Source: Solibacillus sp. FSL R5-0449 (GTDB lineage: Bacteria > Bacillota > Bacilli > Bacillales_A > Planococcaceae). Taken from it: 64,000 bases of DNA. The stretch covers positions 472,001 through 536,000 of the forward strand of contig NZ_CP150239.1 of the NCBI RefSeq assembly GCF_037975215.1, given 5' to 3'. This document shows, one piece after another, positions 7,670-51,104 of the stretch (position 1 is the first letter of the stretch; each line of letters begins with the position of its first letter). The translations under genes were made by a program, and so were the position numbers. The notes under the pieces were generated by a model. That model did no database searches, was not told the origin of the DNA, and saw only the letters and a list, made by a program, of their open reading frames with translations.

Positions 7670-8449
7670 CTAAATTACAGCCGTCTTCTTCGTTGCCTGT
7701 ACAAGCGCTTCGATTGTTGCCCAGTCTTGCTCAACGAGTGCTGTAACAATTTTACTGCCGACAATTACGCCATCCGCAATGTCACCAAAGCTTTTTACAT
7801 GTTCAGTCGTAGAAATACCGAAACCTGCCAATACCGGAATATTGCTTGCTGCTTTCAAGTTTGTAAAGTGACCGGCAAGTTCTGTGGCAAAGCTTGCGCG
7901 TTCACCGGTAATACCGTTTACCGTAACCGCATAAACGAAGCCTTCACTTGCAGCGGCTAATTTTTTAATTCGTTCAGGAGGGCTCATCAATGATACGAGC
8001 TGGACGAGTGCAATGCCGTTTTCCTTTAACGCATCATGCAATAAGGCACTTTCTTCAAAAGGCATATCCGGTACAATCAGTCCTTCGACACCACCACGTT
8101 TTGCATCCTCTGCAAATACTTCAATTCCATAAGCCAGAATCGGGTTTAAGTACGTCATGACAACGAGCGGAATATGGATTTCCTGTGCAAAGCTTTGGAG
8201 TTCATCCAGTACCTTTTTCAATGTCACACCTTTGGCAAGTGCCCGTTCACCGGCTTGTTCAATAGTTGGTCCATCAGCTACAGGATCTGTAAATGGAATG
8301 CCGACTTCAATTGCGGAAACCCCGATTTGCTGAAGCTTTAATATAGTAGGTTTTAATGTTTCAAGCCCGCCATCGCCTGCCATAATATAAGGAACAAATG
8401 CTTTATCCCCTGCTGCTAATACGTTTTCTAGCTGTTTTTGCAATGTCAT
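7670..8449 (-). CDS. trpA: Tryptophan synthase alpha chain
   Basis: A 259-residue TIM-barrel enzyme that cleaves indole-3-glycerol phosphate to indole and glyceraldehyde 3-phosphate and channels indole to TrpB. Catalytic Glu48 and Asp59 lie in [16 protein letters not shown]. The phosphate-binding GFGIS segment is near the C-terminal third. ATG overlaps the trpB stop by 4 nt (ATGA). It is the last gene of the trp operon. Confidence 0.95.
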
Positions 8450-9633
8450 TTCACGCCACCTCCAAGTTTATCCATTAATGTGTGAACATCTTTGTCCCCG
8501 CGTCCTGATAAGCAAACAACAACAATTTCATCGGCAGGTCGGTCCTTGGCAAATTGACTTGCATAGTAAACTGCATGTGCGCTTTCCAATGCCGGTAAAA
8601 TTCCTTCCGTTTCACATAACAGCTTCACACCTTCAAGTGCCTCTTCATCTGTAACAGAAGGGTAGGCTGCACGACCTGTTTCATGTAAATGGCAGTGTTC
8701 CGGTCCAACTCCCGGATAATCAAGCCCCGCAGAAATTGAATGCGCTTCTTGAACAAAGCCATTGTCATCCTGCAATAAATACATGAATGCACCGTGAAGG
8801 ACACCGGTTTTCCCGACATGAATTGCTGCCGCGTGTTTGTCGGTATTGACACCTGAACCTGCAGCCTCCACTCCGTATAATGCTACATCTTGATCTTCCA
8901 CAAATGGGTAGAACATTCCGATTGCATTACTGCCGCCACCGATACAAGCAATAACTGTATCCGGAAGACGTCCTTCCTGCTGTAAAATTTGGGCACGTGT
9001 TTCATCCCCGATGACACGCTGGAAATCACGGACAATTGTAGGGAAGGGGTGTGGTCCAAGTGCCGATCCTAAAATGTAATGCGTATCTTCTATATGCGTA
9101 ACCCAGTGACGCAACGCTTCATTAACTGCATCCTTTAATGTAGCGGAGCCTTTTTCTACTGCAACAACTTTTGTCCCGAGCAGCTCCATACGGAAAACGT
9201 TCAGTTGCTGGCGGCGTACATCTTCTGCCCCCATATAAACGATACATTCCATATCAAGCAATGCACACGCAGTTGCCGTTGCGACACCGTGCTGACCTGC
9301 ACCTGTTTCAGCAACAATTTTTTTCTTCCCCATACGTTTTGCTAAAAGTGCCTGGCCAATCGCGTTATTTATTTTATGTGCACCAGTATGGTTTAAATCT
9401 TCTCGTTTTAAATAGATTTTCGCACCGCCGACTTTTTTCGTTAAACGCTCCGCAAAATAGAGGGGAGTTTCACGTCCGACATATTGCTTTAAATAATAGT
9501 CAAGTTCTTCCTGGAAAGAGGGGTCCTTTTTTGCTTCCTCATATGCAAGCTCCAATTCTTCAAGTGAAGTCATCAATGTCTCGGGTACAAATTGCCCGCC
9601 GAATCGCCCAAAACGTCCTTTTACTGTCGTCAT
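8446..9633 (-). CDS. trpB: Tryptophan synthase beta chain
   Basis: A 395-residue TrpB1-type beta subunit that condenses indole with serine. PLP lysine is Lys87 in [22 protein letters not shown] and the glycine-rich GGGSNA phosphate-binding loop are present, and the C terminus ends [11 protein letters not shown] as in the family. It overlaps trpF upstream and trpA downstream by 4 nt each, implying translational coupling and equal stoichiometry of the complex. Confidence 0.96.
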
Positions 9634-10247
9634 AAAATCAACTCTCCTTTTGCTGTTTCAATAAAATTCGTAATCGCTGCTGAACTTTTTCGACCATCCA
9701 CTTCTACACCACTTGAAACATCTACCGCAAATGGCTCGACAAGCATAATCGCCAATCCAACATTTTCTTCATTTAGTCCACCTGCCAAAATGACCTTTTC
9801 AAGCGGGATTTTCACTTTATCAAGCAGCATCCAGTCAAAAGACTTTCCGCTTCCTCCACGGAAGTCAGTTCCAGGCGCATCGAACAAATAATAGTCCACA
9901 TCATATGTTGCCGCACGTGTCACATCGTCTTCGCTACGAATCGAAAATGCTTTAATTGCCGGCAACCCGATTTCCTGAATCTGATCAGGCGTTTCATCTC
10001 CGTGATACTGGATATAATCGAGTCCGACTTCTTTTGCAATTTGACGAATAGTGGCTGGTTCCTCATTGACAAAAACCCCGACTTTTTTGACCGTACTCGG
10101 AATTGCCTTTGCCAGTTCCACTGCTTCCTCTACCGTAATGCGTCGTTTACTGGGCGCAAACATAAATCCGATAAAATCGGCACCTGCTTTGACCGCTGTT
10201 TCCACATGTTCAATTTCTTTTAATCCGCAAATTTTTACTTTTGTCAT
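9630..10247 (-). CDS. trpF: Phosphoribosylanthranilate isomerase
   Basis: A 205-residue single-domain TIM barrel that converts N-(5-phosphoribosyl)anthranilate to the carboxyphenylamino-deoxyribulose phosphate. KICGLK at the N terminus carries the catalytic Cys7 and the [11 protein letters not shown] phosphate loop is clear. Asp near [21 protein letters not shown] is the expected general acid. Overlaps trpC and trpB by 4 nt. Confidence 0.95.
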
Positions 10248-11038
10248 CGATTTTCGCCAACCTTTGCTGTTATGTCGATTTGTAGTGCTTTAAGTGAATT
10301 TTTGACGTCTCCGCTGCGCATTAATGCTTCGCCGACTAATACTCCTTTTGCGCCAGCATTCGCCACAAACTGTGCATCTTCCGGACCTAAAATGCCGCTT
10401 TCACTAATAAATGCTATCGGTGAAGGGGGAAGAAGCTGCGCAATTTCAAGTGTTGCTGACAACGAAACATCGAATGTTTTCAAATTCCGGTTATTCACTC
10501 CGATAATATTTGCCCCAATAGCAAGGGCACGCTTTAATTCATCGGCATCATGTACTTCAACGAGCACTTCCAGCTGTTGTTCTGTCGCATAGGCGTAAAG
10601 GGATTTCAGCTGGTCATCCGTTAATGCTGCGACAATCAACAGGATAACCGATGCGCCGGCCGCTTTCGCATAGTCGATCTGCACTTCATGAATGATGAAA
10701 TCTTTACATAAAACCGGTATGTCCACAGCATTGGCAACGGCATTTAAATCTGCATAGCTACCTTTGAAAAATGCGCGCTCTGTCAAGACGGAAATACAGG
10801 CAGCACCTGCTTCTTCGTATTGTAACGCTTGCTCAACAGGGTCGACTTCTGTCGCAATATCACCTTTAGAAGGGGAAGCACGTTTCATTTCCGAAATTAC
10901 TTGCAATGAATTGGCTGATATCAGTGTTTCGTATAGGGAAGGGCGGACCTTATCAATTGTTAAAAACACAGGCTTTGTCGAAAGCAATTGTGGCAGCTCA
11001 GTCTTTTTTTGGTCAATAATACGGTCTAAAATCGTCAT
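10244..11038 (-). CDS. trpC: Indole-3-glycerol phosphate synthase
   Basis: A 264-residue enzyme that closes the indole ring. SEMKRASPSKG carries the catalytic lysine near residue 52, LCKDFIIHEVQI the second lysine, and NNRNLKTF and SESGI the phosphate and substrate loops. The ATG overlaps the trpD stop by 4 nt. Confidence 0.95.
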   Translation of the reverse strand: MTILDRIIDQKKTELPQLLSTKPVFLTIDKVRPSLYETLISANSLQVISEMKRASPSKGDIATEVDPVEQALQYEEAGAACISVLTERAFFKGSYADLNAVANAVDIPVLCKDFIIHEVQIDYAKAAGASVILLIVAALTDDQLKSLYAYATEQQLEVLVEVHDADELKRALAIGANIIGVNNRNLKTFDVSLSATLEIAQLLPPSPIAFISESGILGPEDAQFVANAGAKGVLVGEALMRSGDVKNSLKALQIDITAKVGENR

Positions 11039-12072
11039 TTTACGGGTTCCTCCTGCGTCTTTTTTTGGCTATAAGCAACGATATTTTCTAATTTTTCATA
11101 AGCGCGTCCTGACATTATGCTGTCCTTCGCCATCTCGATTCCTTCTTTCATCGTCTCGGCAAGCCCGTATGCAAAGAAGCCAATGCCGGCATTTAAAAGA
11201 ACCGTATCGAAATACACGCTTTGTTTTCCTTTTAGTAAGTCACGCATGATAACTGCATTTTCTGCAGGAGAACCGCCGCGAATTGCAGAAAGGGGCTGTG
11301 CGGCTAAACCGACATCTTCAGCACGCAGTTTAAATGGAATCATGTCCCCGCGGTCTAGCAGTACAAAAGTGTTTTCACCATCCAGCGAAGCTTCATCCAT
11401 TCCTTGGGCGCCAGATACGACGATTGCACGTTCTCGTCCCAGCATATGGAGCACTTCCGCATAATCGGTCGTGAAGTTAGGTCGGTTAATGCCGACAAAC
11501 TGCGTTTTTAACGGAATAGGGTTTGTTAGGGGGCCGACTAAATTGAAAATCGTCGGCTTGCCGATTGCCTGTCGAACTTCACCAATCCGTTTTAACTTCG
11601 GGTGCATGTTCGGAGCATGTAAAAAGGCGATACCATGCTGTTTGAGCAATTCAGATGTTTGCTCGATATTCGGCAGCAGTGTAATGCCAAGTGCTTCCAA
11701 CACATCCGAGCTTCCTGAAGCGCTCGATACTTTCCGGTTGCCGTGCTTTGCTACTGAAATACCGCCACCTGCCAATACAAATGCGGAAGTCGTACTTATA
11801 TTGAAGCTTTGTAGTCCATCCCCGCCTGTGCCGCAGTTATCGATATAGATGCCTTCGGGTACTTCGACAGCAACTGCATGTGATTTCATGACAGAAGCCA
11901 AGCCCGCAACTTCATGTGCCGTTTCTCCTTTTGCACTCATCGCTGTTAAAAATGAGGCAATCTGATCTTTCGGTGTTTGCTCATTAAAAATAAGCTGTGC
12001 CGCCTGTTTCATTTCCTCAAAAACTAAATGCTCTTTTCGCTCGATCTGTTCAATATATGGAAGTAAAGACAT
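11035..12072 (-). CDS. trpD: Anthranilate phosphoribosyltransferase
   Basis: A class-IV phosphoribosyltransferase of 345 residues from the chosen start, adding phosphoribosyl from PRPP to anthranilate. Diagnostic motifs are CGTGGDGLQSFNIST, KHGNRKVSSASGSSDVLEALG, the Arg-rich KLKRIGEVRQAIGKPTIFN region and the metal-binding DEASLDGENT. ATGs exist at 12081, 12078 and 12072. The AAAGGA ribosome binding site, which spans the end of the trpE-like gene, best fits 12072 (8 nt). No trpG precedes it, as in Bacillus, where PabA usually serves both complexes. Confidence 0.94.
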   Translation of the reverse strand: MSLLPYIEQIERKEHLVFEEMKQAAQLIFNEQTPKDQIASFLTAMSAKGETAHEVAGLASVMKSHAVAVEVPEGIYIDNCGTGGDGLQSFNISTTSAFVLAGGGISVAKHGNRKVSSASGSSDVLEALGITLLPNIEQTSELLKQHGIAFLHAPNMHPKLKRIGEVRQAIGKPTIFNLVGPLTNPIPLKTQFVGINRPNFTTDYAEVLHMLGRERAIVVSGAQGMDEASLDGENTFVLLDRGDMIPFKLRAEDVGLAAQPLSAIRGGSPAENAVIMRDLLKGKQSVYFDTVLLNAGIGFFAYGLAETMKEGIEMAKDSIMSGRAYEKLENIVAYSQKKTQEEPVK

Positions 12073-12077
12073 GTTCA

Positions 12078-13061
12078 TCATCCTTTCAGTAAAGAGTGGA
12101 ATGGCGCTTCTTCATCTGTTTCCGAGTGAAGCTGTGCGACATTACCTTGAATTATTATCGTTTGTTCCGGTGTTGTGAAATCGACCTGGCCATTAAAGCC
12201 GATATAGCCGATCAAGCCTTGTGCTGGCAATAGCCCTTTCACGACGTCGATGGCATGAAGGGTAGGGCTTAACGTACCTGTTGTAACATTGGCAAGCTGC
12301 TGCACCGAGTTTTCTGTACTAAAGCGTTCGATTGACGGGGCATCATTTGTAACGGAAATATTCCCGTCCCTTACTTGCATATAGTTTGATTTTGATGTGC
12401 CGATTACTGTGCAATCATCAAATTCGACATAGTACATATACGGTGCAGCGTGTTCAACGCGCATTTTCCGGTAAAGGGAAAGGGCCTCGCCAGTAAATTG
12501 TGCACGATAACTTCCATTTTCCTCTTTTTCGACATGTTGTAATGTATAGGATGACTGTTCAGGTGTCTGTGTTGTAAACAGCTGTTCAATCAGTTGATCA
12601 ATATTTGGTGCCACTTGCTCTGCTTCAATATTTGTATGGAAAACAGCAATTTCATCTGTTAAATGATCAAAAATAACGAGTGTATCGTAAACATGGAACT
12701 GCAGTTCAGGCAACGGCTTCTGCAATGCGTGAATATAGCCAATGCCGCCACCTGTAAACGGATATTCTGTATGTGATGAAATGCGCGGCATCACTTGCTT
12801 CAACAACTGGATCAGCTCGCCTTCATATGTGTAGGCTTTATTGGAATGATGTGTATGATCCAAAAGCTGATCTTCAGTCCCGATATATGTTTTACGCGGG
12901 TTGACACCAATGAACGAATAGCGTCCATTACCATCATATTTTGAGGAACTTTCCAATAAAAACTTCCGTTCACCTTGCAGTCGCTGGAAAATAGAAATCG
13001 GTGTCAGTAAATCCCCATTTACTTTTTTCATTGATGTACGAAAATGTTGCTGAACTACCAT
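12078..13061 (-). CDS. Short TrpE homologue lacking catalytic motifs
   Basis: A 327-residue anthranilate synthase component I relative; functional TrpE is usually about 460-520 residues. The N-terminal domain keeps the Trp feedback-site motifs LLES (35-38) and RYSFIG (47-52), and PYMYYVEF (207-214) matches the third part of that site. The chorismate-binding half is eroded: the GDIFQVVLSQRF block, the AGTRPRG and ARNDLGRV blocks, the MH histidine and GTVSGAPK are absent, while the linking pieces (ERFS 245-248, VTTGTLSP, GYIGFNGQVD 285-294) still align in order. The frame is uninterrupted and no other frame carries the missing motifs. ATG at 13061 follows AGGAG. First gene of the T-box-controlled operon. 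It is probably not an active synthase. Confidence 0.7.
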   Translation of the reverse strand: MVVQQHFRTSMKKVNGDLLTPISIFQRLQGERKFLLESSSKYDGNGRYSFIGVNPRKTYIGTEDQLLDHTHHSNKAYTYEGELIQLLKQVMPRISSHTEYPFTGGGIGYIHALQKPLPELQFHVYDTLVIFDHLTDEIAVFHTNIEAEQVAPNIDQLIEQLFTTQTPEQSSYTLQHVEKEENGSYRAQFTGEALSLYRKMRVEHAAPYMYYVEFDDCTVIGTSKSNYMQVRDGNISVTNDAPSIERFSTENSVQQLANVTTGTLSPTLHAIDVVKGLLPAQGLIGYIGFNGQVDFTTPEQTIIIQGNVAQLHSETDEEAPFHSLLKG

Positions 13062-13144
13062 TTGAAACACTCCTTTTTTGAAATAAACTACGCCTTTACG
13101 ATTCAGATTATTTAGCAATCCTGTAATTAATTTAAAGCTTTGCT

Positions 13145-13478
13145 GAATAAAAAAAAATCGCCCTCAGCAAAAGAATTAACTTTTGCGAAAGGACGATTTT
13201 CACCGCGTTGCCACCTCGTTTGAAGCAAATCAAAAAAACTTGCTTCCACTTAAACCTGATAACGGCAGGGTACCGTCCGCCGACTAACGCCGGCAGCTTT
13301 CATAAGGCCCATTCACATTTACCTTTTGGCGTATTTTCACCAGCCATACGCTCTCTGGACAAAACGATAAATGCTACTCTTCTTATTCAACAATTTACTC
13401 AACTAAGCTCAACTAAACGAAAACGGTGGTCACGCTCCCGCAACCTGCTACCGTAAATAACAATTTGAATTATGCTTT
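13145..13478 (-). promoter_or_regulatory. T-box leader, Trp specifier
   Basis: Read on the minus strand, the leader contains a Stem I with the AGAG/GA-type motif, a candidate specifier loop GAATGG-GCC with UGG (Trp), the T-box sequence AACGAGGTGGCAACGCGG (13203-13220), and a terminator (13149-13200: about 20-bp arms AAAATCGTCC.../...GGGCGATTTT then nine T). Uncharged tRNA-Trp would stabilise the antiterminator and turn on the trp operon. Confidence 0.9.
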
Positions 13479-13578: not shown

Positions 13579-14064
13579 TTAGATTAATTTTTTGAAATCC
13601 AATCGTTTATTTAAAGTGTACATAATCGGTGCTCCAACCGCCAATACAACAAATTCGCCAAATGCTACAAACAGCCAAGTTTCCCAGAACGGGAAGTCAA
13701 GCACGATATTCAGCTGTGCTGCAATGATAAACATTGTAAACGTAAATAACGTTGTATTAATAATCAGACGAGCCCAAATATTTTTCACAAACTTACAAAT
13801 GAATATGAAAATTCCCAGTGTAATAATCGTATGTCCGACACCAAATACTAAATCGATGGGACCGATTGAAGACATCAGGAAATTGGAAATAAATACACCT
13901 AAAACTACACCCAACATATAGCGCGGGTTAAATGCGACTAAATGGTTAAAAATTTCGGCAATACGGAACTGTACTTGCCCAAAGCTAATTGGCGCAACAA
14001 GCATTGTAACAGCAATATATAATGCTGCAATAATGGCACTCGCTGCAATAAACTTTACCTTCAT
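13579..14064 (-). CDS. queT: QueT-family queuosine precursor transporter
   Basis: A 161-residue integral membrane protein with five or six predicted helices. Its sequence (AAIIAALYIAVTMLVAPISFGQVQFRIAEI and FNPRYMLGVVLGVFISN) matches the QueT family, the S component proposed to import preQ1 or preQ0 through an ECF transporter. The upstream preQ1-I riboswitch strongly supports the assignment. ATG follows CTAGGAGG, which is part of the riboswitch expression platform. Single-gene transcript. Confidence 0.88.
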   Translation of the reverse strand: MKVKFIAASAIIAALYIAVTMLVAPISFGQVQFRIAEIFNHLVAFNPRYMLGVVLGVFISNFLMSSIGPIDLVFGVGHTIITLGIFIFICKFVKNIWARLIINTTLFTFTMFIIAAQLNIVLDFPFWETWLFVAFGEFVVLAVGAPIMYTLNKRLDFKKLI

Positions 14065-14071
14065 ATGAAAT

Positions 14072-14112
14072 TCCTCCTAGTTTTTTAACGTGGGATGGTT
14101 ACGAACCACGCA
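14072..14112 (-). promoter_or_regulatory. preQ1-I riboswitch
   Basis: On the minus strand a CGTGG/CCACG stem (14110-14106 with 14093-14089) with a C-rich loop (TAACCATC) is followed by an A-rich TTAAAAAACTA tail that runs directly into GGAGG of queT. This is the compact H-type pseudoknot layout of preQ1 class I with the ribosome binding site in the tail, so control is likely translational. Confidence 0.85.
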
Positions 14113-14293
14113 AAGCAACTGCAATCATAGCAATATTGAAAATAAAAGTAAAGATTTATAGGACTTTTTTTTCAAAAAATTTTACAGAGTAGAAAGTTCA
14201 ACAAACCGCGTCGCTTAGCGGTTTAAAGAGTATTGTCAAAATTCCGAAATGAGGCACATTACCTAGAATAAATTCAGAACATTCTAAATGTTA

Positions 14294-14389: not shown

Positions 14390-15406
14390 ATGAGAAAAAA
14401 TTTAATGAAGCTGTCCTTTTTGTTATTCGGGCTTCTTTTATTATTAGCTGCTTGTGGCGGGGAAGAGAGCGAGACATCTTCGAATGAGACGTCCAATGGC
14501 GAAGCAGTGGATACAGCTAAAGCTGATAGCGATAAAACGTTTAAAATCGGAACAACACAAATTGTTGAGCATCCATCATTAGATGCAGCAAAAGAAGGAT
14601 TTAAAAAAGCAATTGAAGATGCAGGGATTAAAGCAGAATACGTAGACAAATCTGCAAACAACGATAACAGTGCGAACATGACGATCGCCCAGCAGTTAGT
14701 CGGGGAAAATGTAGATCTGATTTTCGCGAACTCAACACCTTCAGCACAGGCGGCAAAAAGTGCAACTTCTGATATTCCGGTTATCTTTACATCGGTAACG
14801 GATGCAGTAGGGGCGGAATTGATCGAGTCAATGGCAACACCTGGTGCTAACGTAACAGGTACGATTGATTTACATCCGGAAACAATGCCGAAAACAGTTG
14901 CCTTCCTTAAAGAATTAGGGGCAACAAATGTAGGGATGGTATATAACGCGGGTGAGCAAAACTCAGTGGCACAAATCGCGGCAGTAAAAGAAATTGCAGC
15001 AAAAGAAGGCGTAACAATTGTTGAAGCGGCAGTATCTGCTTCATCTGAAGTTCGTCAGGCAGCAGAATCTTTAGTAGGAAAAGTAGATGCATTCTATATT
15101 ATTACTGATAATACGGTCGTTTCGGCACTAGAATCTGTAATCGAAGTAGCAGATGCAAACAAATTACCGCTTATTGTCGGTGAGCTTGATTCAGTAGAGC
15201 GCGGCGGTTTAGCTGCATACGGTTTCGAATACTATGATATCGGCTATGAAGCAGGGCAAATGGCAGCACAAATTTTATTGGAAGGCAAAGCACCTTCAGA
15301 AGTTCCGGCTGCATATCCGGCTAACTTAAAACTAGTAATCAATAAAGCTACTGCAGAAAACTTAGGGTTGGAAATTAAGCCTGAATGGGAAGCAGAAGTA
15401 CAATAA
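14390..15406 (+). CDS. ABC transporter substrate-binding lipoprotein (ABC_sub_bind family)
   Basis: A 338-residue periplasmic-binding-type lipoprotein. The signal peptide ends in LLLLAAC, making Cys22 the lipidated residue, and an acidic Ser/Glu linker follows. The body (KIGTTQIVEHPSLDAAKEGFKKAI, ANSTPSAQAAKSAT, GFEYYDIGYEAGQMAAQILL) is the ABC_sub_bind family, whose characterised or predicted members include TrpX-type tryptophan/tyrosine binders. Proximity to the trp operon is compatible with an aromatic amino acid substrate, but this is inference. ATG follows GGGGGA. First gene of a three-gene importer. Confidence 0.8.
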   Translation: MRKNLMKLSFLLFGLLLLLAACGGEESETSSNETSNGEAVDTAKADSDKTFKIGTTQIVEHPSLDAAKEGFKKAIEDAGIKAEYVDKSANNDNSANMTIAQQLVGENVDLIFANSTPSAQAAKSATSDIPVIFTSVTDAVGAELIESMATPGANVTGTIDLHPETMPKTVAFLKELGATNVGMVYNAGEQNSVAQIAAVKEIAAKEGVTIVEAAVSASSEVRQAAESLVGKVDAFYIITDNTVVSALESVIEVADANKLPLIVGELDSVERGGLAAYGFEYYDIGYEAGQMAAQILLEGKAPSEVPAAYPANLKLVINKATAENLGLEIKPEWEAEVQ

Positions 15407-15423
15407 TTCACATTTATACAAAA

Positions 15424-15470
15424 AAGCAAGTCAGCCTAAACAGGTATAAAATGTTTAGGCTGACTTGCTT
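15424..15470 (+). terminator. Perfect 19-bp intercistronic hairpin
   Basis: Arms 15424-15442 and 15452-15470 are perfectly complementary around a 9-nt loop, between the lipoprotein and permease genes. Only a weak T tract follows (AAAACTTTT), so it looks like a partial terminator or 3' stabiliser that would raise binding protein over membrane subunits. Confidence 0.75.
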
Positions 15471-15502
15471 AAAACTTTTAAAAAGTCAGGAGATGATTCG
15501 AG

Positions 15503-16543
15503 ATGTTTACAGCTATGTTTGGGTCAGTGGAGCAAGGGATCATCTATGCAATTATGGCACTTGGGGTTTACTTAACATTCCGCGTGCTGGATTTTCCGGA
15601 TTTAACGGTTGATGGAAGCTTTGTAACGGGAGCAGGTACGGCAGCGATGATGATCGTGCTTGGCTATAACCCGATTCTTGCCACATTGGTCGCAACAGTT
15701 GCTGGATTTATTGCTGGATGTATGACAGGAATTTTACACACGAAAGGGAAAATCAATCCGCTGCTTGCAGGGATTTTAATGATGATCGCTCTCTATTCGA
15801 TTAATCTTCGAATTATGGGATTAAGCTCAGATACCGGTGTAACACGACCAAATATTCCACTATTAAATTCAGAAACAGTTTTTTCGACGTTCGGTTCTTT
15901 CTGGTCGAATTTAGGCATTGATTCCGCGATTACAAACGTATTGAAATCAATGGGCTTAGCTTCTGTTCCAACAACTTGGGGTGTTTTAATATTAATGCTT
16001 GTTGTGACGACAATTATTAAACTAGTAGTAGACTGGTTCTTAAAAACAGAAATCGGTCTTGCAATCCGCGCAACAGGCGACAATAAACGAATGATTCGCA
16101 GCTTTTCCGCAAATACCGATTCATTAGTCATTTTAGGACTCGGAATTTCAAACGGGATGGTGGCATTATCAGGTGCATTAATTGCCCAGTATACAAAGTT
16201 TGCCGATGTCGGATTAGGTATTGGTATGATTGTTGTCGGTCTGGCATCTGTAATTATCGGTGAAGCCATTTTCGGAACGAAGTCGATTGTTCGTGTCACA
16301 TTTGCGGTTATTGCCGGGGCAATAATTTACCGAATGATTTACGCATTGGCGTTACGCGTAAAATGGCTGGACTCAGGGGATATGAAATTAATTACGGCGG
16401 TTATCGTTATTTTAGCGCTGGTAATCCCGCAAATCGTAGGGAAATATAAAGAGAAAAAGAGAAAAGCAAAACGTTTGGAAGAGCGTCTCGCGTTACAGCA
16501 GGCAAAAGTAGATATTGAGCAGGGAGGGAAGAGCCTTGCTTAA
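15503..16543 (+). CDS. ABC transporter permease (LivH/BPD_transp_2 type)
   Basis: A 346-residue polytopic membrane protein with about eight to ten hydrophobic segments, in the branched-chain-amino-acid permease superfamily. FRVLDFPDLTVDGSF and the EIGLAIRATGDNKRMIRSF loop (the ATPase-contacting region) are typical of the permease that pairs with ABC_sub_bind lipoproteins. The C terminus is basic (KYKEKKRKAKRLEER) and cytoplasmic. ATG follows AGGAG. The stop codon overlaps the start of the ATPase gene by 8 nt. Confidence 0.82.
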   Translation: MFTAMFGSVEQGIIYAIMALGVYLTFRVLDFPDLTVDGSFVTGAGTAAMMIVLGYNPILATLVATVAGFIAGCMTGILHTKGKINPLLAGILMMIALYSINLRIMGLSSDTGVTRPNIPLLNSETVFSTFGSFWSNLGIDSAITNVLKSMGLASVPTTWGVLILMLVVTTIIKLVVDWFLKTEIGLAIRATGDNKRMIRSFSANTDSLVILGLGISNGMVALSGALIAQYTKFADVGLGIGMIVVGLASVIIGEAIFGTKSIVRVTFAVIAGAIIYRMIYALALRVKWLDSGDMKLITAVIVILALVIPQIVGKYKEKKRKAKRLEERLALQQAKVDIEQGGKSLA

Positions 16544-17330
16544 ATTAGATGGCATTAATAAAGTATTTAACGAAGGAACACCCGATGAGAAAATTGCGCT
16601 GGACAATATTAACTTGCATTTGGCACCAGGTGATTTCGTTACAATTATCGGCAGTAATGGTGCCGGGAAATCGACAATGATGAATATGATTTCAGGTGCA
16701 TTAACACCAGATTTCGGCTCTGTCGAAATTAACGGCAATGATTTAACCCGCCTGCCGGAATATAAGCGTGCTGTCCATATCGGCCGTGTTTTCCAAGATC
16801 CGATGGCAGGTACAGCACCAACAATGACAATCGAAGAGAACTTGGCGATTGCCTATTCTCGTAACACGAAGCGTTCATTGCGCTTCGGTGTTGATAAAAA
16901 GCGTCGTGAGTTTTTCAAAACGTCATTGGAAAAACTGCATTTAAATTTGGAAAACCGTTTATCGGCAAAAGTCGGATTATTATCAGGAGGGGAACGCCAG
17001 GCATTAAGTTTATTAATGGCGACATTTACGAAGCCTGCGATTTTACTGCTTGATGAACATACAGCAGCACTTGATCCGTCACGGGCTGAACTTATTACAA
17101 AGCTGACAAAAGAGCTTGTCGAGGAAAGCCGGCTGACGACATTGATGGTCACGCATAATATGCAGCAGGCGCTCGATTTGGGGAACCGCCTCATTATGAT
17201 GGATAAAGGGCAAATCATTTTGGAAGTCGGTGAAGACCGTAAACAGGACTTGACGATTCCGGATTTAATGCACGAGTTCGAACAAATCCGCGGCGAAAAA
17301 ATGAATTCAGACCGCGCGTTATTAGGCTAA
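16536..17330 (+). CDS. ABC transporter ATP-binding protein
   Basis: A 264-residue ATPase. Walker A is GSNGAGKST (39-47), the signature is LSGGERQALSL, Walker B is ILLLDEHTAALD and the switch is TLMVTHN. DEHTAALD (rather than DEPTAALD) is usual in this importer subfamily. TTG at 16536 is preceded by GGGAGGG and gives a normal N-terminus (LKLDGINKVF). It energises uptake by the preceding lipoprotein and permease. Confidence 0.85.
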   Translation: MLKLDGINKVFNEGTPDEKIALDNINLHLAPGDFVTIIGSNGAGKSTMMNMISGALTPDFGSVEINGNDLTRLPEYKRAVHIGRVFQDPMAGTAPTMTIEENLAIAYSRNTKRSLRFGVDKKRREFFKTSLEKLHLNLENRLSAKVGLLSGGERQALSLLMATFTKPAILLLDEHTAALDPSRAELITKLTKELVEESRLTTLMVTHNMQQALDLGNRLIMMDKGQIILEVGEDRKQDLTIPDLMHEFEQIRGEKMNSDRALLG

Positions 17331-47354: not shown

Positions 47355-47377
47355 AGAGCTATTAATTATATATGGAC

Positions 47378-47570
47378 GATAAAGGTTCTTACTCGATAAT
47401 GAATTGAGTAAGGAGTAAAAGGGAAATCGGTTCAAATCCGATGCGGTCCCGCCACTGTAATTGCTAGTTGAGAGCAATATGCCACTGAAAAACTTTCGGG
47501 AAGGCGCTCTTCAACGTTTATGCATAAGCCAGGAGACCTGCCTTTATAATGCCCTAGATTAAACCTACGA
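47378..47570 (+). promoter_or_regulatory. Cobalamin riboswitch
   Basis: All core elements are in order: AAAGGTT (P1 left, near 47381), GGGAA-TCGG, the central CGGTCCCGCCACTGTAA (near 47444-47460), GGGAAGGCG, and the B12 box GCCAGGAGACCTGCC (47528-47542), closing with AAACCT (P1 right, near 47561). It controls the btu operon downstream; binding of adenosylcobalamin would favour the terminator at 47622. Confidence 0.95.
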
Positions 47571-47621
47571 GGATAGGATGTGGCGGATAAATTCTTTTTG
47601 TTGAATTTTATTTGCATGCGT

Positions 47622-47660
47622 AAAGCTTCCTTCGTTTCTAGTAGGGAGCTTTTTATTTTT
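47622..47660 (+). terminator. Riboswitch expression-platform terminator
   Basis: AAAGCTTCC (47622-47630) pairs with GGGAGCTTT (47644-47652, one wobble), followed by TTATTTTT, 40 nt before the btuF start. Confidence 0.7.
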
Positions 47661-47699
47661 GTAGAAAATTATAAAACGAGATCTCAGGAGGTTTTTATT

Positions 47700-48647
47700 T
47701 TGAAAAAATGGCAACTGCTTTCTTCCGCAGCATTACTGACATTAACATTGACTGCATGTAATTCGGAAAAAGCAACAGATGAACAACCGGCAAACGATAT
47801 GGCGGAAGTAACAGAAAAAGCACAATTCCCGGTAACGTTAACAGATGCTTTGGACAAAGAAATTACACTTGAAAAAGCACCGGAACGCATCATTACATTA
47901 ACACCATCGAATACAGAAATTTTATTCGGCTTAGGATTAAATGATGAAATTATCGCTGTAAATGACAATGATACATATCCTGAAGAAGCATTGACAAAAG
48001 AATCGGTTGGCGGCATGGAGTTCAATTTAGAACAAATAATCGGTCTGCAACCGGATTTAGTCTTAGCACATGAATCCGGAATGTACAGCTTCAATGAACA
48101 GGCAATTGCGCAGCTTGAATCAGTAGGTATTCCTGTATATGTTGTAAAAGATGCAAAAACATTTGAAGAAACGTACGAAACGATTGAACAAATCGGGCAG
48201 CTGACAAATAAAGAACAAGAAGCAAAAGAAATGATTGCCTCCATTAAAGAAGGAATCGAAGAAATTGAAGTGAAAGTAGCACAGCTGGAAGAAAAATCTG
48301 TGTTCATCGTAGTTGGAACAGACCCTGATCTTTATGCAGCAGGTGAAGAGACATTCATCAGTGAAATGCTGGACGTGTTAAACGTAGAAAATGCTGTCCC
48401 GGAACTAGGATGGCCGATGTACAGCTCTGAACAATTTGTAAACAGCAATCCGGATGTCATTTTAGTTACGTATGAAAGCGATATGGCGGCAATCGAGAAA
48501 AATGATGCGTATGCCGAAATGGATGCAGTGAAAAACGGCAATGTGAAGTTAGTCGATGGCGATACGACAAGCCGACAAGGTCCTCGTATTGTTGAAGGCA
48601 TTGAATCGATAGGTGCGGCGATTTATCCAGAGGTATTTAATGAATAA
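47700..48647 (+). CDS. btuF: Cobalamin-binding lipoprotein BtuF
   Basis: A 315-residue helical-backbone ABC binding protein. The signal peptide ends LTLTAC (Cys20), marking it as a lipoprotein. The family motifs are PERIITLTPSNTEILFGLG, IIGLQPDLVLAHE and a long helical linker near residues 160-205. Assignment to B12 rests on the riboswitch and on the partner genes. TTG at 47700 follows AGGAGG by 8 nt; the frame upstream runs into the riboswitch expression platform. Confidence 0.92.
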   Translation: MKKWQLLSSAALLTLTLTACNSEKATDEQPANDMAEVTEKAQFPVTLTDALDKEITLEKAPERIITLTPSNTEILFGLGLNDEIIAVNDNDTYPEEALTKESVGGMEFNLEQIIGLQPDLVLAHESGMYSFNEQAIAQLESVGIPVYVVKDAKTFEETYETIEQIGQLTNKEQEAKEMIASIKEGIEEIEVKVAQLEEKSVFIVVGTDPDLYAAGEETFISEMLDVLNVENAVPELGWPMYSSEQFVNSNPDVILVTYESDMAAIEKNDAYAEMDAVKNGNVKLVDGDTTSRQGPRIVEGIESIGAAIYPEVFNE

Positions 48648-49638
48648 AAAATATTCAATCGCCTATGTACTATCGATTGGATTGCTTTTAAGCAGTATAT
48701 GGATCGGCATTTCATTCGGATCGGTAAATATCCCGTTTTCAACACTTTGGGATAAAACGACTGATCCGGTTGCATACAGTATTTTGTGGAAAATCCGAAT
48801 GCCCCGTGTCATTTTAGCCGCATTAATCGGAGCATCATTAGCAATAGCCGGAGCCGCATTTCAAGGGTTACTTAAAAACCCTTTGGCAGATCCGTATACA
48901 TTGGGGATTTCCTCTGGTGCCTCGGTAGGTGCGGTTATGACCATCTTTTTAGGGATTTCCATACCAGTGCTCGGTGTTTTTACATTGCCTGTATTCAGTA
49001 TGGCTGGAGCCGCGTGTACGATGATCATTGTCCTGACGTTTGCAAGATTAGTTGACCGTTCGATGAAAATGGAAACACTGATTTTAACGGGGATTATTTT
49101 CAGCTCATTTTTAGGTTCCTGCATTTCCTTAATGGTCGCACTTACTGGTGAACAGCTTCGGGAAATCATCGGCTGGCTTTTAGGCAGTGTTTCGATGCGG
49201 GGATGGCCATATGTCCAGATGGTGCTGCCGTTTATGTTGATCGGTACGGCGCTAATTTGGCTGACTCGCCGTGAACTGAATGCGATGATTTACGGAGAAG
49301 AGCGTGCCCAGTATTTAGGTGTAAATGTGAAGCGCAGCAAATATATGATTTTGGCGGGCGGTTCCATTTTAACAGGAGCAGCAGTTGCAGCATCCGGAAC
49401 AATCGGGTTTGTCGGGTTAGTCGTACCGCATATGATTCGACTGCTGATTGGAGCAGACCATCGACATTTATTGACATTGTCGTTTTTGAACGGTGCAAGC
49501 CTGCTCGTCATTTGTGACCTAGTATCGCGTACAATTATTGCTCCGATCGAACTGCCGATTGGTGTTATTACTTCCTTTATTGGCGCGCCTGTCTTCGCTT
49601 ATATTTTCTTCAAACAACGTAGAAAGGTTGTTGCATAA
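48640..49638 (+). CDS. btuC: Cobalamin ABC transporter permease BtuC
   Basis: A 332-residue FecCD/BtuC-type permease with ten predicted helices. IRMPRVILAALIGASLAIAGAAFQGLLKNPLADPYTLGISSGASVGAV, GWLLGSVSMRGW and GTIGFVGLVVPHMIRLLIGADHR (contact with the ATPase) are diagnostic. ATG at 48640 overlaps the end of btuF, with AGAGG upstream. Ends with the A of its TAA inside the btuD start codon. Confidence 0.93.
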   Translation: MNKKYSIAYVLSIGLLLSSIWIGISFGSVNIPFSTLWDKTTDPVAYSILWKIRMPRVILAALIGASLAIAGAAFQGLLKNPLADPYTLGISSGASVGAVMTIFLGISIPVLGVFTLPVFSMAGAACTMIIVLTFARLVDRSMKMETLILTGIIFSSFLGSCISLMVALTGEQLREIIGWLLGSVSMRGWPYVQMVLPFMLIGTALIWLTRRELNAMIYGEERAQYLGVNVKRSKYMILAGGSILTGAAVAASGTIGFVGLVVPHMIRLLIGADHRHLLTLSFLNGASLLVICDLVSRTIIAPIELPIGVITSFIGAPVFAYIFFKQRRKVVA

Positions 49639-51104
49639 TGTTAAAAGTAAATAATTTATCTGGTGGTTACGACGGCAAAACGATTATAAAAAATGTGACG
49701 TTTCACGTGGAAAAAGGGAGAATTCTCGGGATTCTTGGTCCGAACGGCAGCGGTAAATCGACATTACTAAAAATGATCAGCGGTGTAATGAAGCCTCAAA
49801 CAGGTGAAATTTTCATCGAAGAAAAACCGCTTAAAAGCTATGATAACAAGCAATTGGCGAAAAAGATGGCCGTTCTGCCTCAATTAAATGCAAGTGCATT
49901 TACAAACAGTGTATATGATGCGGTTTCATTAGGCCGTTACCCCCACCAAAGCGGTTTCTTTTCTTCCTGGACCGAAGAGGACGAAAAGACAGTCCAGCGG
50001 GCAATGGAAAGTACAGGTGTGTCGCAGTATAAAAATCAGTACTTGGAATTTTTATCGGGAGGCGAGCAGCAACGGGTATTTATCGCCCAGGCACTTGCAC
50101 AAAATTCGGAGCTGCTTCTACTGGATGAACCGACAAACCATTTGGATATTGCCCATCAAAAGCAGATACTTGATATGATTCGTATGCAAGTTGAGATGCA
50201 AGGGCTGACGGTTGTCTCGATTTTCCATGATATTAACCTGGCCTCGCTTTATTGTGATGAACTCCTGCTGTTGGAAAATGGTGAAGTACGGGCATTTGGC
50301 GAGCCGCATGAAGTAGTGTTGCAAGAACAGATTGCCGATGTGTATCAGGCACGGATTGCAACATATCCTCACCCCGAGCTGCCGAAACCGCAAATTACGA
50401 TGCTGCCAACGAATGAAATGGAACGAAAAGCAGCGACAATCCAAATGGACCAGTTTCAAATAACGGAAGACTATATCGAATATCAGGCACAGGCACCGCT
50501 GAAAGTAATCTCTTCTGCTGTGCATAATGCCGGCATAGGCTGGTATGACACAATACTCAATCGTTCCATTGATCCAGAATACGATATTTATAATGTGAAA
50601 GAGGAAACGGAGCAATTTTTAAAAGAGCGTAAATTTTCTCCAACAAACACGGTCGTTATGCTGACTGCAGTGGAAACAAGCTGCGCAGTTATTCGGCATT
50701 TCTCGAAAAATAATGTAGAAATTCTAGTCATGGTAACGGCAGGGGTAGGTAACAGTGTTGATGTTACGAAAACATATTTACGGGAAGATGAGCCGCATAT
50801 CGGTACGATTAATACATGGGTCATCATTAATGGTAAACTGACAGATGAAGCGTTTATTCAGGCGATGATTACGGCTACTGAAGCCAAAACGAAAGCAATG
50901 GCAGATCAGCAAATTAAAGATTCCGTGACAAATACAATTGCAACAAGTACCGCAACCGACAGTCTACTGATTGCCGCTACCCAGCAAGGGGATGAAATGC
51001 CGTATGCCGGACCTATTACCGAAATCGGCAAACTGATCGGCCGGGCTGTGTTCGAAGTAACGATCGAAGCAATAAAAAAATATAAGCAGCATTATAATAA
51101 GTAA
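49638..51104 (+). CDS. btuD: Cobalamin ABC ATPase fused to CbiZ amidohydrolase
   Basis: A 488-residue two-domain protein. Residues about 1-245 form the BtuD ATPase: Walker A GPNGSGKST, signature LSGGEQQR, Walker B LLLLDEPTNHLD and the SIFHD switch. Residues about 280-488 match CbiZ (TNTVVMLTAVETSCAV ... ILVMVTAGVGNSVDV ... GTINTWVIINGKLTDEAF ... GPITEIGKLIGRAV), an adenosylcobinamide amidohydrolase that salvages imported corrinoids. The fusion resembles YvrA of Bacillus. It couples import to remodelling of cobinamide-type precursors. Confidence 0.88.
   Translation: MLKVNNLSGGYDGKTIIKNVTFHVEKGRILGILGPNGSGKSTLLKMISGVMKPQTGEIFIEEKPLKSYDNKQLAKKMAVLPQLNASAFTNSVYDAVSLGRYPHQSGFFSSWTEEDEKTVQRAMESTGVSQYKNQYLEFLSGGEQQRVFIAQALAQNSELLLLDEPTNHLDIAHQKQILDMIRMQVEMQGLTVVSIFHDINLASLYCDELLLLENGEVRAFGEPHEVVLQEQIADVYQARIATYPHPELPKPQITMLPTNEMERKAATIQMDQFQITEDYIEYQAQAPLKVISSAVHNAGIGWYDTILNRSIDPEYDIYNVKEETEQFLKERKFSPTNTVVMLTAVETSCAVIRHFSKNNVEILVMVTAGVGNSVDVTKTYLREDEPHIGTINTWVIINGKLTDEAFIQAMITATEAKTKAMADQQIKDSVTNTIATSTATDSLLIAATQQGDEMPYAGPITEIGKLIGRAVFEVTIEAIKKYKQHYNK

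Follow-up and report, generated by a model that had tools for sequence, protein, structure and literature searches.

Anthranilate synthase component I (TrpE) is recognised by the model TIGR00564 and consists of two domains, Anth_synt_I_N (PF04715) and Chorismate_bind (PF00425). Chorismate binding in TrpE is ascribed to Gly328, Thr329, His398 and Gly485, and tryptophan binding to Ser40, Pro291, Met293, Val453 and Tyr455 (PMC10464499). The same study describes that tryptophan inhibition of the enteric anthranilate phosphoribosyltransferase (AnPRT, TrpD) occurs within the anthranilate synthase complex, and is lost once the complex is disturbed (PMC10464499). TrpE is active in that complex, whereas in the Solibacillus operon described here the TrpE homologue appears dead and the genome encodes an active TrpE at another locus. 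Regulatory pseudoenzymes are an established class of protein, and HisZ seems closest in logic to the present case. HisZ arose as a paralogue of histidyl-tRNA synthetase, and its fold and pathway are unrelated to those of TrpE. It is described as the regulatory subunit of ATP phosphoribosyltransferase (PMC10998830, PMC10795190), and would work like the protein studied here in being a dead paralogue of another enzyme that regulates a phosphoribosyltransferase in amino-acid biosynthesis; for HisZ such regulation has been reported, whereas we infer it for the short TrpE. Two further systems bear a likeness. TrpM of Streptomyces coelicolor is described as a modulator of tryptophan biosynthesis, a small protein whose gene lies among trp genes (PMC5036795); it is the product of a small ORF of a trpCXBA locus, and is likened to the short TrpE by description. 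The inactive TrpEa (TrpA) of Chlamydia trachomatis is reported as a subunit of the tryptophan pathway kept for its partner after loss of catalysis (PMC3937554), and differs in being the full-length alpha subunit of another enzyme, tryptophan synthase. A description of a TrpE-derived regulatory pseudoenzyme was not found in the open-licence literature, which was searched mostly by title and the start of the abstract.

We analysed a stretch of 64,000 nucleotides from Solibacillus sp. FSL R5-0449 (NZ_CP150239.1, positions 472,001 to 536,000; the window). An earlier reading of the letters without database searches (the sequence-only reading) had described a T-box-led trp operon that opens with a TrpE relative of 327 residues, and both elements were recovered, the leader as a match to RF00230 and the gene as a frame without stops. 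The gene order on the minus strand is T-box, short trpE, trpD, trpC, trpF, trpB and trpA (Table 1). The specifier codon, inferred from an alignment inspected by eye, reads UGG (Trp). The protein had been called about 150 residues shorter than usual, a fair estimate, as the full-length TrpE encoded by this genome, with 464 residues, exceeds it by 137. The good ribosome binding site (AAAAGGAG) and the tight junction with trpD noted in that reading were also found: the Shine-Dalgarno sequence of trpD, AAAGGA, lies within the final codons of short trpE in 16/16 members of the genus, with three further codons in locus L017, suggesting that translation of the two genes is coupled.

Table 1. Features of the trp operon, with positions in the window.
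Feature	Position	Strand	Basis or remark
Short TrpE paralogue, 327 aa, ATG at 13061	12078..13061	-	predicted from sequence to be catalytically dead
RBS AAAAGGAG of short trpE	13070..13077	-	sequence
T-box leader of trp operon	13186..13399	-	RF00230, 132.5 bits, E 3.2e-29, gathering score 93
LLES segment, residues 35-38; equivalent of Trp-pocket Glu39-Ser40	12948..12959	-	E and S in 34/34 degenerate homologues
GRYSF segment, residues 46-50	12912..12926	-	R in 34/34 degenerate homologues
PYMYY segment, residues 207-211; Pro291-Met293 equivalent	12429..12443	-	in Solibacillus, P 12/16, Y and M 16/16
GYIGFNGQVDF segment, residues 285-295; Gly454-Asp463 equivalent	12177..12209	-	G454, G460 and D463 in 34/34
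trpD Shine-Dalgarno AAAGGA in last two sense codons of short trpE	12081..12086	-	sequence
trpD, anthranilate phosphoribosyltransferase	11035..12081	-	TIGR01245, 353.6 bits, cut-off 199
trpC	10244..11038	-	NF001371, 317.7 bits, cut-off 307
trpF	9630..10247	-	NF002300, 231.9 bits, cut-off 212
trpB	8446..9633	-	TIGR00263, 649.1 bits, cut-off 392
trpA	7670..8449	-	TIGR00262, 229.8 bits, cut-off 102

Other features of the window were recorded. Divergent from the trp operon is a three-gene ABC transporter (14390-17330, plus strand) whose binding protein resembles TrpX, at 227 bits to NF041285 and below its cut-off of 390; the transporter is possibly a tryptophan importer. A PreQ1 riboswitch (52.4 bits; 14071-14115, minus strand) precedes an ORF of 161 aa (13579-14064), for which no NCBIfam model gave a match at E 0.001. 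A cobalamin riboswitch (121 bits; 47366-47559, plus strand) lies before ORFs (47580-51104) that by inspection resemble a vitamin B12 ABC transporter.

The window protein carries the segments LLES, RYSF, PYMYY and GYIGFNG, the first three of which the sequence-only reading had already picked out. Missing are GDIFQVVLSQ, GTRPRG, the E..E-H block, the MH histidine and SGAPK, as well as the IRT arginine and the C-terminal GAGIV..E..E; the absence of the catalytic blocks GTRPRG and SGAPK and of the MH histidine had been noted in the same reading. Pfam analysis detected the N-terminal domain (Anth_synt_I_N, 84.5 bits, cut-off 23), and a partial Chorismate_bind domain that fell under its cut-off (25.3 vs 27 bits). 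The protein is thus homologous to TrpE, with which it shares the N-terminal domain, several segments of the tryptophan pocket and the predicted fold; it differs in its length of 327 aa, in the loss or deletion of the catalytic chorismate/Mg2+ positions, and in reaching only 117 bits with TIGR00564 against a curated cut-off of 517.7, a cut-off that alone is no proof of inactivity, since scores of 448-519 are seen for operon copies that retain the main catalytic positions. On mapping the catalytic positions by motif, the chorismate/Mg2+ residues G328, T329, E358, E361, H398, Y449, R469, G485, E495 and E498 were found to be absent or replaced. Among these, E358, E361, Y449, R469, E495 and E498 are what we take to be chorismate/Mg2+ positions of TrpE. 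The equivalents of the tryptophan-binding residues Ser40, Pro291, Met293, Val453 and Tyr455 are S38, P207, M209, I284 and Y286; the remaining positions counted below as pocket are presumably feedback or contact sites.

Structure prediction was consistent with a retained fold. AlphaFold2, run with an alignment of 30 rows, predicted a compact TrpE-like fold for the window protein (pLDDT 85.9, pTM 0.87), and the prediction for the less reduced form of L. odysseyi (396 aa) was also confident (86.4 and 0.88). The nearest solved structures found by Foldseek were TrpE and PabB, with TM scores by query length of 0.66-0.77 from superpositions that are loose (rmsd 5-9 A); these included mycobacterial TrpE (7bvd, 0.73-0.75) and the Trp-bound TrpE of S. 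marcescens (1i7s, 0.72). In a profile alignment to the TrpE structure 5kck, three parts of the protein keep their order, namely the N-terminal domain, the region of PYMYY and the GY strand at the C-terminal side.

A search for a second, full-length trpE was successful. The genome holds four full-length chorismate enzymes, one of which is a canonical TrpE of 464 aa (563.8 bits to TIGR00564) followed by a TrpG-type amidotransferase of 193 aa. This pair is unlinked to the trp operon, lying approximately 1.64 Mb away in contig coordinates, and has its own T-box, the specifier of which, by inspection, again reads UGG. The second enzyme is of the TrpE/PabB type and scores under the TrpE cut-off and just under the PabB cut-off; we take it to be PabB because it is followed by an amidotransferase ORF and by an ORF that on inspection resembles PabC. 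The remaining two are an isochorismate synthase (MenF-like) and DhbC. A genome without anthranilate synthase was considered and rejected, as canonical TrpE and TrpG are both present. The pseudoenzyme proposed in the sequence-only reading agrees with the loss of the chorismate and Mg2+ positions and with the complete TrpE/TrpG pair found outside the operon.

All 16 Solibacillus genomes carry the short form without stops, at 62-97% identity to the window protein, and all 16 also encode a full-length TrpE above the TIGR00564 cut-off. The alignment of the genus contains 150 invariant columns out of 334, among them long unbroken stretches such as residues 8-25 and 33-39. We compared short trpE with trpD within Solibacillus in 14 pairs chosen from 120 possible, in three of which dS exceeded 1. 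The dN/dS ratio was 0.055-0.244 for short trpE and 0.022-0.130 for trpD, and was higher for short trpE in 14/14 pairs. The short TrpE is therefore under selection, somewhat looser than that on TrpD. The purifying selection for which the sequence-only reading had proposed to look in relatives is thus present, and its alternative of a recent in-frame decay did not hold, given the presence of the gene in 16/16 genomes, the dN/dS values, and degenerate homologues at the same place in five more genera. An assembly error was ruled out on the same 16/16 genomes and dN/dS values. The protein is an enzyme paralogue that has lost its catalytic residues and remains under lasting purifying selection, as regulatory pseudoenzymes are, and is kept throughout the genus, probably as a regulatory protein.

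We surveyed the operon-head position in 261 genomes from 19 genera of the family (g1 to g19) using a profile of the short form. The profile matched 189/261 genomes at E 1e-40, and judged by frame length most matches were full-length TrpEs. An order-wide search took in the same 261 genomes, and beyond the family a scan of named genomes was made with two peptide patterns, of which the best 80 of 265 matches were considered. The stretch upstream of trpD was inspected in 52 genomes from the 18 genera besides Solibacillus. A degenerate copy was present in 60/60 genomes of six genera, namely Solibacillus (g1, 16 genomes), g3 (3), g6 (1), g8 (32), g9 (3, including L. odysseyi) and g11 (5); its position before trpD was confirmed in Solibacillus, in all 12 genomes of g3, g6, g9 and g11, and in 6 of the 32 genomes of g8. 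Not one of the 60 copies has a stop inside the matched stretch, and the open frames range from about 460 residues down to 262, with lengths that differ by genus. A canonical TrpE above the TIGR00564 cut-off accompanies the degenerate copy in 58/60 genomes, the exceptions being G025 (a 2.1-Mb assembly of 90% completeness) and G063. In G063, a g8 genome, the canonical trpE is broken by a TAG (G063:C1:2739020-2740350), which may be a sequencing error or a real loss, and the degenerate operon copy alone is whole. Three other g8 genomes contain a third TrpE-like protein (G069:C1:2348899-2350230, G071:C1:2265017-2266342 and G054:C69:16045-17370), with about 310 bits to TIGR00564 and a frame of 503 aa.

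Intact forms occupy the same position in other genera. A TrpE with all tabulated catalytic positions lies directly before trpD in six genomes of g17 (Sporosarcina) and in G142. It is the best match to TIGR00564 in these genomes, at 468-519 bits and above the cut-off in G166 only, and we take the other, lower-scoring matches to be PabB-like. The two genomes each of g15 (Rummeliibacillus) and g19 (Viridibacillus) combine an operon TrpE of 448-465 bits with a canonical TrpE elsewhere; their operon TrpE retains the Mg2+ glutamates, His398 and Thr329, and varies at a few other positions. A full-length trpE was also found before trpD in g2, g4, g10, g16 and one g12 genome. Among the genomes examined, no trpE preceded trpD in g7 (2), g18 (4), g5 (2), g13 (2), three of four in g14 and one of two in g12, and a canonical TrpE elsewhere was confirmed for those of g7, g18 and g14, and for a single genome in each of g5 and g13. 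Some variant arrangements were seen. TrpE and TrpD form one frame of 790 aa in G164 (g16; L242 1408-3780), with an apparently active TrpE, and separate frames in G163 of the same genus. The TrpD frames directly after TrpE at the g10 loci L183 and L184 have 545 and 548 aa, which suggests a TrpG-TrpD fusion resembling that of enteric bacteria. Within the L. odysseyi group, two genomes have trpA directly followed by a second trpB-like gene (L134 9635-10834, L135 9844-11001) that shares 56-57% identity with the TrpB of the window.

Comparison across these genera revealed a graded erosion of the catalytic domain. In a series of one protein per genus (two for g3), Chorismate_bind scores fell from 323 bits in the canonical TrpE of this genome through 315 in g17, 304 in g19, 246 in g6, 154 in g8, 121 in g9 and 64-68 in g3 to 25 in Solibacillus and no match in g11, while Anth_synt_I_N remained steady at 72-108 bits. 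The g6 protein still has E358 and E361, and has lost His398, E495 and E498; the g6 and g8 proteins are presumably inactive because Mg2+ ligands are missing. In 34 tabulated degenerate proteins, Glu39, Ser40, the GRYSF arginine, Gly305, Gly454, Gly460 and Asp463 are invariant, and Tyr292 is present in 33. Substitutions are seen at Tyr455 (Y 28, F 6), Met293 (M 25, L 9) and position 453 (I 22, L 11, V 1), and Pro291 and Asn288, both conserved in active TrpEs, are found in 19/34 and 5/34. Within Solibacillus alone, Met293 and Tyr455 are kept in 16/16 and Pro291 in 12/16. Ser40 alone of the named tryptophan residues conserved in active TrpEs (Ser40, Pro291, Met293 and Tyr455) is kept in all six genera, and a strand similar to GYIGFNG is present even in the 262-residue frames of g11. 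At 90% conservation, 50 active TrpEs share 145 columns, whose fate we tallied. Every degenerate genus keeps 8/13 pocket or feedback positions, 0/13 catalytic positions (single genera retain some), and 32/119 other columns, with Fisher p values of 0.02 for pocket against other columns and 0.002 for pocket against catalytic positions, from tests that ignore shared ancestry and whose pocket list is drawn only in part from PMC10464499. The claim that the Trp-pocket positions outlast the catalytic ones was thus borne out. In seven columns the degenerate clade has a nearly fixed residue that active relatives seldom carry (among them R56 and T58 of PRKTY, T98 and N144), which points to new constraint beyond mere leftover.

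A tree of 85 TrpEs separated operon from canonical copies in genera having both and placed the degenerate operon copies on one branch (SH-aLRT 99), by a quick method that carries a warning, as the long g3 and g8 branches meet. A more careful tree, built from 39 operon copies, again set the intact copies on one side of a branch (98/95), so that catalysis may have been lost once. A single origin of all the shortened forms was rejected by the AU test (p 0.0003); a grouping of Solibacillus, g9 and g11 that leaves out the full-length g6 was not rejected (p 0.12), nor was one of g1 and g11 alone (p 0.22). At least two independent shortenings are therefore supported, and no more than two, because a joint shortening of Solibacillus, g9 and g11 is not rejected.

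We propose, with moderate confidence, that the short TrpE, as a paralogue of anthranilate synthase component I, no longer has a catalytic role and persists as a tryptophan-binding regulatory subunit, with TrpD as its likeliest partner. A Trp-responsive regulatory subunit is the best reading because a dead paralogue stands at the operon head, its end overlaps the ribosome binding site of trpD, and much of the end-product site is kept. The short protein would still fold as the tryptophan-binding core of TrpE, bind L-Trp, and relay the signal to a pathway partner through contact. TrpD is the first candidate because AnPRT feedback in enteric bacteria needs the anthranilate synthase complex, and would then come under tryptophan feedback; the second candidate is the separate TrpE-TrpG. 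There may be a division of labour in which the T-box senses uncharged tRNA-Trp and the short TrpE free tryptophan. The TrpE-TrpD fusion of G164 shows that both are possible as one chain, an argument limited to one genome with an apparently active TrpE. Some observations weigh against the proposal. Asn288 and Pro291 are variable and, of the four named tryptophan contacts, Ser40 alone is fully kept, so tryptophan may be bound with a changed affinity or no longer at all; folding might be the sole reason why the domain and sheet persist; and no trpE precedes trpD in sister genera that have the canonical pair, indicating that the function is dispensable there. A fuller account, which we consider rather less likely than not, is that the eroded TrpE became a stand-alone tryptophan sensor; in it the second synthase would have freed the operon copy, this copy would have been trimmed at least twice independently towards its tryptophan-binding core, and its feedback would fall on TrpD, the first enzyme remaining in the operon.

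The alternative that survives best, which we nevertheless find rather doubtful, is that the dead TrpE gives structural support to TrpD or to another enzyme of the pathway, as a stabiliser or scaffold, without sensing a ligand, the pocket segments being retained as core sheet and domain junction. Such a structural role would account for the many kept columns outside the pocket (32/119) and for the lack of conservation of Asn288 and Pro291, and has a parallel in the inactive TrpA-type subunit reported to be needed by its partner in C. trachomatis (PMC3937554); it leaves unexplained the Trp-site residues Glu39 and Ser40 in 34/34 proteins and the modest enrichment of pocket positions (8/13 vs 32/119, p 0.02). 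It is unlikely that the short protein instead joins or competes in the heteromer of the separate TrpE-TrpG and alters its feedback response. The two do occur together in 58/60 genomes, and T-boxes precede both loci in the window genome, but the canonical TrpE has its own Trp site (E39, S40, P291 and Y455 in 39/39), the two loci are unlinked in this genome, and the shortest forms are without most of the chorismate domain, while in S. marcescens the substrate crevice is described as adjoining TrpG (PMC10464499). Very improbable is a gene kept as a translational coupler or leader ORF that brings ribosomes to trpD, since the overlap with the trpD Shine-Dalgarno sequence in 16/16 genus members fits it, but the protein-level constraint (dN/dS 0.055-0.244), the retention of segments across genera and the g7, g18 and most g14 operons without trpE before trpD do not. 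We give equally little credence to a slow decay of a redundant gene under residual constraint, with which the excess of dN/dS over that of trpD in 14/14 pairs and the varying lengths among genera would agree, but against which stand zero stops in the matched stretch of 60 copies from six genera, the long invariant runs (residues 8-25 and 33-39) and newly fixed columns, and the feasibility of clean loss seen in sister genera.

Living relatives preserve the intermediates between an enzyme and a non-enzyme at one operon position, in a series that runs from an intact operon TrpE without a second copy, through an intact one with a second copy, a near full-length degenerate form and partly deleted forms, to a remnant of 262 residues. 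Nearly all of these genomes also carry a canonical paralogue, which serves as a control, and the origin of regulatory pseudoenzymes is thereby open to direct assay. In these genera the anthranilate synthase is probably a protein other than the TrpE homologue with which the trp operon opens, a caution that affects metabolic models and tryptophan engineering.
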